Part shown: piece after piece, positions 11,676-61,867 of the stretch
Layout of the letters: every line of letters begins with the position of its first letter
Position numbering within the stretch: position 1 is the stretch's first letter
Assembly (NCBI RefSeq): GCF_963675165.1
Contig: NC_087380.1
Location: 1,727,803 to 1,791,802, forward strand
DNA length: 64,000 nucleotides
From: Halichondria panicea
Lineage: Eukaryota > Porifera > Demospongiae > Suberitida > Halichondriidae
Reading direction: 5' to 3'
Notes under the pieces: generated by a model
Databases searched by the model: none
Told to the model about the DNA's origin: nothing
The model's input: the letters and a program-made list of their open reading frames with translations, nothing else
Made by a program: the position numbers and the translations under genes

Positions 11676-14600
11676 CTACTTGTTCTCTGTGTTGAAGTCA
11701 GTGGGTGCATAAGCTACACAGGCAGTGAGCTGGTAGTCTGCAGGAGGGTCCATCACCTCATAAGCAGCCTCCTCCTCCAGTTCGCTCAACTCCTCGTAAT
11801 CATGGGAGGGGAGATGACTCATCACCACTGGGGGTAGTCTGCAGGAAATAGTCCAGTAGCTATATACAATTGACAATGCAATAATAGTTAGAATAAACGT
11901 CATGAGCCCTCTAAAACCATATGTATACACAGCTAATATAACTTCTTCATTTACAGACCAGATGCATGCATGCACACTAATACTCACTCTGTTGCTTGAC
12001 TGCCTGTCCTTTCATCACTCATGTCCTTGGATCCAGACCTCCGTTGTCTCAGTAACAACAGTACAAACATTACAATCAGTGTTAGCACAGCAATGGCCAA
12101 GACTCCAGCAACCACCCCACCAGCCACTGCACCAACATTGGCCACTACACTCTCTGTGAGTGAGGTAGTAGAAGAGGTTGAAGTTGGAGTAGCCACCTGT
12201 GTCCGATTAGTGATATCCTCAGGGCACTCTGGACTATTGAGGTTAGCAATGACAACCGGACAACTGTTAGTCACACTGAGGCCTGCTCTCTGCACCACAA
12301 CGATTGGATGATTCTCAATCCATTGTTCCATTAGCCTAGCCAGTTGTATGGTAGATACACTCTCTGATCCAGTGAGCACAGCTCTGTAGGTCACATGACT
12401 AGGGGAGTCATCGAAACAAATAATAAAGGGATTCAAAACGAGGGAAGAGTTAAATCCACAGGCACACTGGCTTTCAATGCCTTGTGTTAGACTATTGGTG
12501 ATGTCATCTGTTTTCATACCAGCGTCTTGTTCAGTGTATACTCTGCAGTTTGTTATTCCCTCTAGACGAATTTGAATATGCATACCTGCATGTGAAGTGG
12601 TTGAAGAAAAATGCTAAATTGCAAAATACCATGCATGGGATGAGATATTATATTGAAATTGAATCAACACATGCTTTATATATAAACACTTACTCATGAA
12701 CTCAATGGTGTAGTGAGCAGCTACAGTGTGTTCCCCCTCAAGCTGACTGGAGGTGAGGATGACCTGACAGCTGTACTGACCAGCGTCTGACAAGTAGAGA
12801 CTGTCAAAGTTGAGGGTTGCTGTGCTGGGCATGAGTGACCCTCCCTCCCTCGTCCACTGGTAGGAGAGGGTGGGTTGTAGAGAGGCCCCTCCAGTCAGGG
12901 AACAAGTGAGGGAGAAACTCTGACCAGCCATTGGAATACCACTGGGGCTGATCACCACTTGTATGGCTGGAAGAAGAAAGGTGTAACCAAAACAATCAAT
13001 TAACTTTCACTATGACAGAATAAACAAAGCTACTAGATCCATAGCTGCATGTAGTAACTGTTATCAACATGAACTAACTCACCTAAACAGGTTGGAGCGC
13101 CTGGACTCCAGTTTCCATTAGCCTCACATGTTCTTGTATTTGACCCAACTAAGATGTGCCCTCCATCACAGCTGTAAGTAGCTGTATTCCCAAAAGTGAC
13201 TCCAGAGGATGTGTCCACTGCTCCATTACTTATAGACAGGGAGCCGCAGCTGATAACTAATGAACCAATGCATAATTAATTGTGACACATGCACAAATCC
13301 CACTACTTTACTGTATAACCGCTATGCCATGCAATATCTGGATACTGGCACAGTTGGTGAACTGTTTCATATGCTGCCGATATGGCAGATATTGGCACAC
13401 TGTTTCCTTTGATCTCAGAGGTCAAAATGTAACAAGTACAGTAACTCATACTTACCACCACTAAAAATCTAAAAATAAGCAATTGATATAACGTACTGTA
13501 AAGCTTTATGTATACAACTCACTTTGACAAGTGATGACACCTCCACTCCACATTCTGTCAGACTGACACACCCGATCAGGTCCATTGGATGGTTGGTAAC
13601 CAGTAACAGCACAGCTGTGTGTAGACACGGCTCCCACTAACCTGGGTGAGGAGATTGGATTGTAGCTGATGGTTCCATTGTTTAGTACAGTGAGGTCATC
13701 ACAGGTGGCTGTAAAGAAATACACAATAATTATCACGTATGTATGGTGTAACAGTGAACCAAACAACAGACCTGTACAAGTAGGAGTCGTGCTATTACTC
13801 CATCCACTGGTAGTACATGTCCTCACTGCTGTCCCACTGAATAGGTAGCCAGCTGTGCAACTGTAGCTAGCCGTGGAGGTTGTTACTCGGGGGATAATGG
13901 AGTCACTGTATTGAATGACTCCATTTGTTGGATTAGGGAGAGTTGGGCAAATTACTGTGTATAAGAGAGAAAGACGTACACAATACAAAGAGTTGTGACA
14001 ATCTCACATTCACAACTTGGTGTGGTACCACTCCACAGTCCATTGGTATGACAGCTCCGAGTAATTATGGTGTCACTAGCGGTACCATCAATCCTGTAAC
14101 CATTGACACAGGTGTAGGTGGCCACAGTGTCAGGTGGTCTGAGGTTACTAGTTCCACCATTGTACGATATGTCTGAATTAGCTTGATTGCCGAGGTCAAA
14201 ACAAGTCACTACAAGGAATGATAATAATTAAGTATGAATGATAAAGCTACTCACATAGACAGGTTGGTGTACTGCCGCTCCACACTCCATTAGCTTGACA
14301 AGTCCGACTAGTATCACCAATGAGTAGGTATCTAGAGTTACATGTGTAGGTAGCAGTCATCATGAAGGTGGTTCCAGAGGATGTACTCACTGCTCCATTG
14401 GATGGGTCAGGGAGATCATTGCAGTCAACAGCTACACGTGTGAAAAACAGAAAGTCAACACACTGTGATATCACCGATACTCACGTTCACAGGTGGGTTG
14501 AGAAGGACTCCAAGATCCAGTAGCCTGACAGGTTCTAAAGATAGTACCACTAATCATGTACCCATTGATACAGGTGTAAGTGGCCACTTGACTAAAGGTG

Positions 14601-60100: not shown

Positions 60101-61867
60101 CTATACAGTCTCTCTTCTAATTCCCTAGCCACACACATTAATTATGATTTCCAGTGGCGCACAAATGGTTTGCTGCTTAGAGTGGCGCTTAGCGATAGTA
60201 AAGTAATAGTAGCTGTTTCATGACGTTCAGTGTGGATTATAACGGTCGGCATTCGGCTATTTACCGACCCAAGAACCTGAATAACCGGTCAGTTTAGCTC
60301 TGGGCTGCCACAATGACCTGCCAGTACTCACGAGATCTAGTTGCGCATGCGCCCTAGCATGCTGATTCAGCAAGCTAATTAGTTGCTATTGGATGCTGAT
60401 TCAGCAAGCTAAATAGCCACGTGCGAAATTAATTATATTGTAAAGTAGCTACCTAGCTATGCCCTCTAACCGTCACTCTTCTCAGCATTTAGCTGTCAAA
60501 CAGCCTGAGAGACAAGTTTATATAGGAAGAGGCAAGTCCATTGAACTGGAGAAAGATCACTAAACACTATACCATGACTGTTGTGAATCTGAGCAAAAGA
60601 AGCACATCTAGCTCTACAACCAGTCCTGATGAAGATGAGTCAACCATTTCACTGGCTGAATACTTATAGGATAGTTCAAAGACTAAATTTTCACTTGTGC
60701 ATATTAATAATTAGACTGTCATAATTAATTTTATCAGAATGAACGTCAATGAGCTATAAATAATAATGCATGGTAGATCCATGTCTCAGGGCATCAGACC
60801 CTAGACTTTCCTCATTAGTCGGGCCTTGCGACAGTCATGGCAGAACAAGAAACTACAATGACAGAGCATTTTGGTTGTGGTCTGACATAAGTCAGTTCCT
60901 GTCAGATTTCTTATAATCCACACTGGACGTTATAATAGATGAATTGTATGTATAGCCTCAATTTCAGTAACGCCAGCAAAAAGTAATTCCGAACTTAATG
61001 CTTGATTAGAGTAAAACATTTTGTATTTGGTGCTTCTATTGTGATGGTGCATGGCGATATAATCAGTACAGTACTCACGTGCACAGGCTGCAGGTGGTGC
61101 TGGAGACCAGGTACCGTTGCTTGTACCATCACTCATACAAGTTATCGGAGTAGCTCCACTGATGGTGTACCCAGTGTCACAGGTGTAAGTGGCCATGTTG
61201 GTGACTGCATCATATGAGATCCTTCCATTAGACAGGGGACTCAGTGTGGGGCAAGGAGCTGTAGGGGTGGGGGTTAGTATTGGACATAGACAATATAGTC
61301 AGCACTCACTGAAGGTGATACATCTCCTCTCATCGGTGGCAGTCCTTACACAGCAGTGTTCTCCATCAGGACTGAAGTGTGTGGGACCACGATGCAGAAC
61401 AACGCCAACTCCAGAAACACCAGTGATGAACAGATCGTCATCAACTGCAACTGTGTTGGGATTGTTCAGGTCGCCTATGGGCACCTGACTCCCACCAGGA
61501 CCCTGCCATACTACACCACCAGGGTCTAAAACGTAGCAATACCAGGCTGGTGGATTAGTACCAACTCCTGACCCAACATCAGAGAACGAGATGATCTCTC
61601 CAGTGTGGTCAGTGCCATCGGGCTCAGTGGGTGATGCCAGTCGATCTGTATGCCAATAATAATTCTGCATGGTACCAAATCTATACTAGATAACACCAGT
61701 AGCACAAGATTTATATACATGTACTTTGTATGAGTATATATAGACTAGATCTAGCTATATTACTGGTTGCACTGCATGTACATATATATAAACTCACACA
61801 ACGTCTGCCCATACACTAGGGAAACACTTCCCAACAGACAGTAGAGAAATAACCTTGAGGGGAACAT
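57193..61867 (-). CDS. Receptor B': six-sushi, Ig, single-pass receptor with tyrosine-motif tail (intact, about 722 aa)
   Basis: Eleven exons: signal 61798-61867 (MFPSRLFLYCLLGSVSLVYG); N-terminal domain 61310-61645; sushi 61079-61258, 59853-60035, 59614-59790, 59387-59563, 59159-59332, 58818-59006; Ig-like 58424-58753; TM 57998-58172; tail 57193-57370. All phases join and no stop interrupts. Sequence and layout pair it with receptor B, but the N-terminal domain differs in the loop after PGG (QVPIGDLNNPNTVA). The tail starts EQSPVVM (others ELPPVVM) and keeps YEEL, YEVV and YQLS. A transposon lies 38 bp upstream of the ATG (61905-63252), and another sits in the intron between the first and second sushi exons. 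Confidence 0.87.
58173..58250. repeat. (TG)n at the TM-exon acceptor of receptor B'
   Basis: About 75 bp of TG with one TTTG and one GGGGGG interruption, forming the CACACAG acceptor on the coding strand. Confidence 0.93.
60228..60925. mobile_element. 698-bp hAT-like non-autonomous element in receptor B' intron
   Basis: Ends are CAGTGTGGATTATAA and TTATAATCCACACTG. GACGTT flanks both sides (60222-60227, 60926-60931). The homologous introns of B (about 25400) and D (about 44155) are uninterrupted. It contains a short plus-strand frame beginning MTVVNLSKRS (60572) that ends after about 32 codons and may be a transposase remnant. Class is uncertain. Confidence 0.78.

Follow-up and report, generated by a model that had tools for sequence, protein, structure and literature searches.

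Does a tandem array of receptor genes that share one tyrosine-motif tail serve recognition of self and non-self in a sponge? We addressed this question in a 64,000-nucleotide stretch of Halichondria panicea contig NC_087380.1 (hereafter, the window), whose minus strand, over the interval 11.7-61.9 kb, repeats one tail exon nine times behind ectodomains of sushi and immunoglobulin (Ig) domains; a sequence-only reading had taken it for a candidate immune or allorecognition receptor cluster. Our analysis, for which the evidence base is the sequence of one assembly, indicates that the locus probably belongs to a fast-evolving paired-receptor system, with recognition outside the cell and opposed phosphotyrosine modules inside. 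The earlier reading had passed over the N-terminal domain (NTD) shared by genes A, A2, B, B2 and B3, the strongest functional signal of the locus, and had also missed partner genes that join this ectodomain to a receptor tyrosine phosphatase.

Receptor genes of the window

Genome searches and exon chains confirmed nine homologous tail exons on the minus strand, each entered in phase 2 after the exon for the transmembrane (TM) helix, as had been claimed. The varied ectodomains described earlier were found too: gene A has eight sushi domains, an Ig domain, a membrane-proximal domain (MPD), TM and tail; gene I has one Ig; and B, B2 and B3 each encode a signal peptide, NTD, six sushi domains, an Ig-like domain (IgB), TM and tail. 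Three of the nine, B, B2 and B3, are open from signal peptide to tail; the other six (A, A2, I, I2, C and a further copy at 40 kb) are either dead or doubtful. The exon chains are predictions of a small purpose-written gene finder, checked against conserved signal-peptide exons; the first gene models, into which short spurious exons and pieces of reverse transcriptase and UHRF1 had been joined, do not enter the counts. Pfam scans, which covered parts of the window genes, identified Sushi in B (five of six stretches pass singly) and Ig in A and I, and the sushi domains of A were counted from exons.

11676..15622, minus strand: gene A, with NTD at 15296-15622, eight sushi exons at 13083-15139 and Ig at 12694-12966
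11988-12585 and 11676-11838, minus strand: inner exons of gene A (MPD plus TM exon; tail exon)
near 15758, minus strand: signal-peptide exon of gene A, frameshifted
19025..21182, minus strand: gene I, with Ig at 20648-20981, TM and tail exon at about 19025-19274; relic
21632..26404, minus strand: gene B, tail exon at about 21632-21809; open, one weak donor
33943..38072, minus strand: gene C, with sushi, IgB, TM and tail at 33943-34120; relic
39932..40740, minus strand: relic copy with part of MPD, TM and tail at about 39932-40109
41285..45084, minus strand: gene B2, tail at about 41285-41450; open
47447..51367, minus strand: gene A2, duplicate of A; dead
54691..56781, minus strand: gene I2, with one Ig, TM and tail at about 54691-54868; frameshifts, relic
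57193..61867, minus strand: gene B3, with the ATG of its signal-peptide exon at 61867, NTD at 61311-61643, six sushi, IgB, TM and tail; open

Among the open genes, B has a weakened donor after its sixth sushi exon (GTATAAGA), and in B2 an early TAA removes the last residues of the tail. Gene A is probably dead because its signal-peptide exon is frameshifted; the one-base deletion is common to A and A2 and is therefore probably older than their duplication, and A2 also has a TGA inside the MPD. The block 10517-19075 matches 46332-54795 at 94.6%, a segmental copy that, together with the mixture of live and dead genes, bears out the earlier picture of birth and death. Gene I has two in-frame TAGs where I2, itself frameshifted, reads CAG. 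In gene C a match to the NTD was looked for and not found.

A family clustered on one contig

Searches covered the window's own genome (131 Mb, 39 contigs), in which the window's contig is labelled C4. The tail gave 51 matches (59 of 59 candidates scored) at 67-100% identity and E down to 1.7e-34, homology beyond chance, and these come to 47 places after hand-merging of four split pairs: 43 on C4, two on C8 and one each on C10 and C12, some of them fragments or with stops. The NTD gave 73 matches, mostly on C4 (76 of 76 candidates scored; some matches split), the MPD 126 (135 of 135 candidates scored) and IgB at least 150 (best 150 of 282 candidates scored). MPD and IgB matches spread across C4 at 0.15-4.4 Mb and other contigs, and the cluster therefore lies within a wider sushi/Ig receptor landscape. 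A second tyrosine tail, read in another piece of the genome (L030) and likewise found on C4 genes with the NTD, sushi domains and IgB, gave 17 matches, at C4 0.96-1.01 Mb and on C1. No NTD relatives were found in prokaryote and viral contig collections. The window is probably the end of a clustered, fast-evolving receptor family, whose NTD appears family-specific and weakly Ig-like.

On C5, the interval 5.25-7.28 Mb is possibly a sister cluster: its MPD-like domains are 37-50% identical, and sushi matches occur along part of it.

Shared ectodomains on tyrosine tails and receptor phosphatases

The further DNA examined comprised 200 kb at C4:530-730 kb and 44.5 kb elsewhere. In the former, the tail matches 20 times, at 19 places, and the NTD 25 times, and the 12 chains tried there, picked for having a signal-peptide exon found, divide into eight that end in the tyrosine tail (Y-tail) and four that end in a phosphatase. 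Seven of the eight Y-tail chains begin at the signal-peptide exon and six have a TM match by BLAST; one, Y705, has no room for a TM. The phosphatase chains run from the NTD through two to four sushi domains (BLAST count) and IgB into phosphatase domains; all but P570 begin at the signal-peptide exon, and P531 holds half an NTD only. In P541, Pfam recognised four stretches of sushi, an I-set Ig (5e-13) and, at 1.5e-85, Y_phosphatase. The partner genes continue after the TM in tandem protein tyrosine phosphatase (PTP) domains, of which the second (D2) is degenerate, and the D1 motif HCSAGVGRTG (HCX5R) stands in the genomic frame at seven places of C4:530-730 kb. In the P541 model (L011, C4:540-547 kb) the I-set Ig lies between TM and PTP, and would be intracellular if the model is right.

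Further along the contig, at C4:1.30 Mb (L031), a gene reads NTD, six sushi domains and an IgB 83% identical to that of B2, like window B, and continues into an intracellular Ig and the first phosphatase exon, where the piece ends; this partial model is unreliable in its later exons. At C4 1.27-1.38 Mb there are nine NTD matches that each have a phosphatase match 4.6-6.4 kb farther along (by position only, among the matches listed), and a phosphatase search of the genome gave at least 176 matches (best 150 of 361 candidates scored).

Comparison of individual domains brings the two classes close together. The IgB of B2 is 93% identical to two and 82-86% to five of the seven copies in the C4 1.27-1.38 Mb array, and among Y-tail copies 95% identical to B and 82-89% to C, B3, 1797060 and 1807083, the signalling class of copies outside the fetched DNA being assigned by position. 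Among the 35 NTDs compared, phosphatase and Y-tail copies are likewise near neighbours: the adjacent genes 546620 and 551030, of opposite classes, have NTDs 91% identical, and the NTD nearest to that of 575414 belongs to a Y-tail copy, 656721 (76%). Because NTDs and IgBs of both classes are near neighbours, it appears that ectodomains have passed from one signalling class to another. Linked genes thus carry a shared ectodomain on differing signalling modules, as paired receptors do, and phosphatase chemistry suggests that these modules would be mutually opposed, with the phosphatase receptors acting on the tyrosine tails. Kinase-tailed partners were not found: PF07714 matches on C4 lie at 2.5-2.8, 5.0 and 7.3 Mb, among the matches listed (129 of 1749 scored), and no kinase motif occurs in the window, C4:530-730 kb or L030-L033.

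The same architecture could be imagined in proteins of species-specific cell adhesion, or of gamete recognition shaped by sexual selection, with no part in immunity, and sushi and Ig domains, receptor phosphatases and a fast-evolving tip would fit such adhesion-type proteins. Dozens of linked paralogues with two to three opposed modules would exceed the usual gamete lock, and we consider this explanation unlikely.

Two further observations concern the same region. Genes at C4:553.9-558.2 kb (L012) and 596.2-601.4 kb (L016-L017) begin with the same signal peptide and NTD, then sushi, followed by a cysteine-rich stretch and two fibronectin type III domains (Pfam fn3 on L012); their inner end was sought and not found. 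Also, at C4:547326/547148, 588852/588674 and about 601612/601416, only about 180-200 bp separate a Y-tail stop from the signal-peptide ATG of the gene that follows, a spacing that may allow read-through or shared regulation.

Diversifying selection on the outermost domain

To compare domains, we dropped copies covering <85% of the query and copies with stops (two for IgA, the Ig domain that passes Pfam, two for MPD and one for the tail), and the NTD alignment kept 35 of 39 matches. We estimated omega, the ratio of nonsynonymous to synonymous substitution rates (dN/dS), by codon maximum likelihood with one omega (GY+F3X4; IQ-TREE). For the NTD, omega was 1.71 and rejected a value of 1 (twice the log-likelihood difference, 2dlnL, 35.0); restricting the alignment to 101 nearly ungapped codons gave 1.59 (25.3), and a core of 63 codons away from gaps gave 1.71 (15.7). 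The proportion of nonsynonymous differences (pN, 0.221) exceeded that of synonymous differences (pS, 0.173), with a pN/pS of 1.28 (site bootstrap 1.02-1.63) that reached 1.65 in 99 close pairs, and the median pairwise dN/dS was 1.39, with 87% of 587 usable pairs above 1. The values for IgB (0.42), MPD (0.41) and two phosphatase exons, the longer ones (0.26 and 0.21), also rejected 1, from below, whereas those for a 28-codon phosphatase exon (0.54) and the first sushi (1.22) did not differ from it. By these estimates the NTD is under diversifying selection, and IgB, MPD and the longer phosphatase exons are conserved.

Diversifying selection on the outermost domain is the usual mark of a recognition surface. 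With the varied ectodomains on shared tails, it upholds the earlier claim of a recognition locus, as far as recognition receptors in general; the evidence extends to putative diversifying paired recognition receptors and not yet to allorecognition.

A high NTD omega could also arise from relaxed constraint in a largely non-functional cluster made up mostly of pseudogenes, as the six dead or doubtful copies among the nine of the window might suggest. This we regard as very improbable, because relaxed genes should show omega close to 1 and no significant excess over it, and omega was 1.73 (2dlnL 29.9) once A, A2 and three further copies, incomplete or doubtful, were dropped. C42, W52 and the C106-C107 pair are moreover invariant in 35 NTDs, and long chains occur in the neighbouring C4 DNA.

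Mosaic genes

In the same 12 Y-tail genes (66 pairs), pS was 0.165 for the NTD, 0.033 for IgA, 0.339 for the MPD and 0.051 for the tail, so that synonymous divergence differs up to tenfold between exons of the same genes. Correlations of distances were 0.03 for NTD-IgA, 0.06 for NTD-MPD, 0.28 for IgA-MPD, 0.30 for IgA-tail and 0.13 for MPD-tail. Because exons of the same genes differ in synonymous divergence and these distances correlate little, the receptor genes are mosaics, a pattern consistent with gene conversion or exchange among copies; the pair NTD-tail, discussed below, is the exception.

The same evidence, that is the NTD omega, the mosaic exons and the paired chains, would also be expected if the NTDs bound bacterial surface ligands during filter feeding, the phosphatase members being inhibitory partners or pathogen-driven decoys. 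Paired activating and inhibitory forms with birth and death are reported for FcR-like and CD300 receptors in the available part of that literature. We hold such recognition of microbes or symbionts to be a tentative explanation, on a par with allorecognition, which is taken up below.

Proposed signalling and the evidence against it

By the gene models, an intact gene encodes a signal peptide, a hypervariable NTD, a stalk of 2-12 sushi domains, an Ig-like domain close to the membrane and then the TM helix, and its inner part is one of at least three modules: the four-tyrosine tail, the related second tyrosine tail, or an Ig with two PTP domains. Exchange between copies reshuffles the family as the NTD diversifies. 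Under the paired-receptor reading, the NTD would bind a variable ligand, upon which Src/Syk-type kinases would phosphorylate the tail tyrosines, for SH2 proteins to read; phosphatase receptors of the same NTD class would bind ligands of this kind too and undo the signal, and the response would be set by the balance of tyrosine tails and phosphatases, as in vertebrate paired receptors. Candidate components are present in the genome: by position, among the matches listed, an SH2-SH2-kinase arrangement lies at C9:5.255-5.259 Mb and an SH2-SH2-phosphatase arrangement at C3:8.404-8.406 Mb (the phosphatase match covering profile positions 11-90), and these look like Syk/Shark-type and SHP-type genes, respectively.

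The tail itself has four tyrosines, in YxxL-x8-YxxV followed by DYQL and AYAPT. In 29 open tails, the first position is Tyr in 27 (Phe in two), the other three are Tyr in all 29, and Leu stands three residues after the first in all 29. Compared with the consensus immunoreceptor tyrosine-based activation and inhibitory motifs (ITAM and ITIM), YxxL-x8-YxxV is ITAM-like and not canonical.

The NTD keeps C42, W52, S100, P101, G103, E104, C106, C107 and C127 in every copy having the column, with variable stretches between, which may be read as a V-like domain with variable loops. The IgB profile matched Ig-superfamily (IgSF) chains in 33 of 33 PDB matches at E<=1 (best 0.037), and IgA passes Pfam (Ig_3, 3.9e-8, 34.1 bits, cut-off 30). 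For the MPD, neither Pfam nor PDB searches produced a firm match, and AlphaFold on three window rows reached a predicted local distance difference test (pLDDT) score of 37. A SEA-like domain was considered for the MPD and is supported by no search.

Several results weigh against diversifying paired receptors with Ig-derived tips. The first concern the folds: Pfam matched none of 12 NTD members and found an Ig domain in none of 10 IgB members; AlphaFold on five window rows gave a pLDDT of 45 for the NTD; of the two supports for an Ig kinship of the NTD, hhalign against IgB gave E 4e-4 at a probability of 36%, and the NTD profile matched IgSF chains in seven of seven PDB matches at E<=1, all weak (best 0.072) and partly out of register. 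A single-sequence NTD search placed sialidases and PPPDE peptidases first (best 0.079), with matches mostly not IgSF. In the tail, V or M replaces the canonical ITAM L/I in the second tyrosine motif, and a strict ITIM does not fit, the -2 residue being H, P or Q before the first tyrosine and mostly A before the second. As to selection and exchange, omega for the tail (0.83) and IgA (0.67) does not differ from 1, because there is too little divergence; recombination can raise omega somewhat; and an NTD-tail distance correlation of 0.62 means that the exons are not all independent. Finally, the models themselves are imperfect, since predicted chains misplace some exon borders and the phosphatase models lose part of the D1 active-site exon to a misplaced border, and six of the nine window copies are, as noted, dead or doubtful.

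Comparison with known recognition systems

KIR, LILR and SIRP are vertebrate paired receptors in which inhibition runs via ITIM tails that recruit SHP, LILR being a further family of paired activating and inhibitory forms. With these, and with CD300 and FcR-like receptors, the sponge family shares near-identical ectodomains on opposed modules, exchange between copies and clustered arrays; it differs in that the phosphatase here is part of the receptor. Substrate tails and phosphatases that share one tip would be a distinct way to build paired receptors, and would bear on the age of tyrosine-motif immune signalling. The partner genes resemble receptor protein tyrosine phosphatases in their TM, tandem PTP domains and HCSAGVGRTG motif, and to our knowledge an ectodomain of NTD, sushi and IgB with an Ig on the inner side is unlike known classes of receptor phosphatase. 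Among sponge cell-recognition proteins, which include the aggregation factor, the Geodia SRCR/SCR aggregation receptor reportedly has sushi (SCR) repeats; the family described here differs in its Ig-like tip and its tyrosine and phosphatase modules, and no SRCR domain turned up in the Pfam scans made, which covered gene parts only.

If the system served allorecognition, NTDs would bind NTDs that match their own, or else a polymorphic partner, on an adjacent individual; match or mismatch would set the balance of tyrosine-tail and phosphatase signals and so decide between fusion and rejection, as for Hydractinia Alr and Botryllus fuhc. A large linked cluster, a hypervariable tip, a sushi stalk, tyrosine tails, birth and death and exon exchange all speak for this. 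So does the likeness to Botryllus FcoR/fester and fuhc, which, in the available part of a review (PMC12065747), are linked type I receptors with a V-type Ig, sushi, C2-type Ig and tyrosine-motif tails; FcoR has a V-type Ig, one sushi, two C2 Ig, a TM and an ITIM/hemITAM tail, compared with 2-12 sushi and one membrane-near Ig in the present family. The sponge models depart from FcoR further in their family-specific NTD, in showing no second C2 Ig and in some an unusual MPD instead, in a tail that fits neither strict motif, and in phosphatase-tailed partners with the same tip. Hydractinia Alr are likewise clustered allorecognition receptors with divergent Ig-like tips. They have tandem Ig-like domains and a spacer, and we know of no sushi repeats or phosphatase forms among them; here sushi domains occur in 12 of 12 C4 chains and in window genes A, B, B2 and B3, the exceptions being window I and I2, with one Ig and no sushi. 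Alr tails are described as ITAM/ITIM-like in the same part of the review (PMC12065747).

Against allorecognition, paralogue divergence alone cannot separate self from microbe recognition, and in a word search of the main text of an Amphimedon graft transcriptome study, supplements aside, sushi, immunoglobulin, phosphatase and tyrosine did not occur (PMC5450542). We therefore treat allorecognition as tentative, like microbe recognition. Less likely again, and doubtful, is the fullest version, a sponge allorecognition or recognition complex in which a megabase cluster exchanges an Ig-derived tip onto tyrosine tails and onto phosphatases that erase their signal, self or non-self being the local kinase/phosphatase balance; if true, the logic would be that of paired receptors, but with an eraser that forms part of the receptor itself.

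Which genes underlie graft rejection in sponges is not settled. The available part of the Botryllus review calls invertebrate allorecognition mechanisms "a complete mystery" and describes the candidate proteins of sponges, cnidarians and ascidians as not conserved (PMC12065747). Titles and abstract openings, with most subscription papers outside the search, yielded no such sponge cluster and no tip-sharing pairs of Y-tail and phosphatase genes. A mapped cluster with a diversifying tip offers named exons for sequencing across individuals and crosses.

Neighbouring genes and repeats

A tetraspanin gene adjoins the receptor genes on the opposite strand:

10536..11483, plus strand: tetraspanin gene, by Pfam (this copy only)

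Further tetraspanin copies lie on the plus strand at 17723-18651, 46197-47277 and 53439-54377, of which the first two look frame-broken; the copies are passengers of the receptor-gene duplications. Fragments of SRA/RING exons, which we take to be UHRF1-like, stand upstream of several receptor genes, at window positions 30181, 45942 (minus strand) and 15891-15980, with more such pieces, by motif reading, near 27.7 and 45.4 kb and at C4:665030 and C4:711946; these too are apparently passengers of duplications.

Gene C is interrupted by a 1.3 kb repeat at about 36032-37373, of which an inverted copy, 96.8% identical, lies at 61905-63252, and the repeat is probably a recent mobile element. Elsewhere in the genome, among the matches listed, large arrays of similar kinase domains (PF07714) occupy C1:15.5-17.4 Mb and C10:1.70-1.94 Mb. 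An Antennapedia-homeodomain search gave nine matches, the best 47-49% identical and none Hox-like, which speaks against a bilaterian or cnidarian genome, and a tunicate would be expected to show closer ones. A search for silicatein as a demosponge marker gave 77 matches, and the four papain-type genes read from them have the catalytic Cys, which makes them uninformative; COX1 gave a single match of 64 positions with two TGA. Long CA/TG microsatellites occur at 34.8-35.0, 58.2 and 5.9-6.2 kb of the window, and two of them sit in the intron immediately before the TM exon of C and B3.

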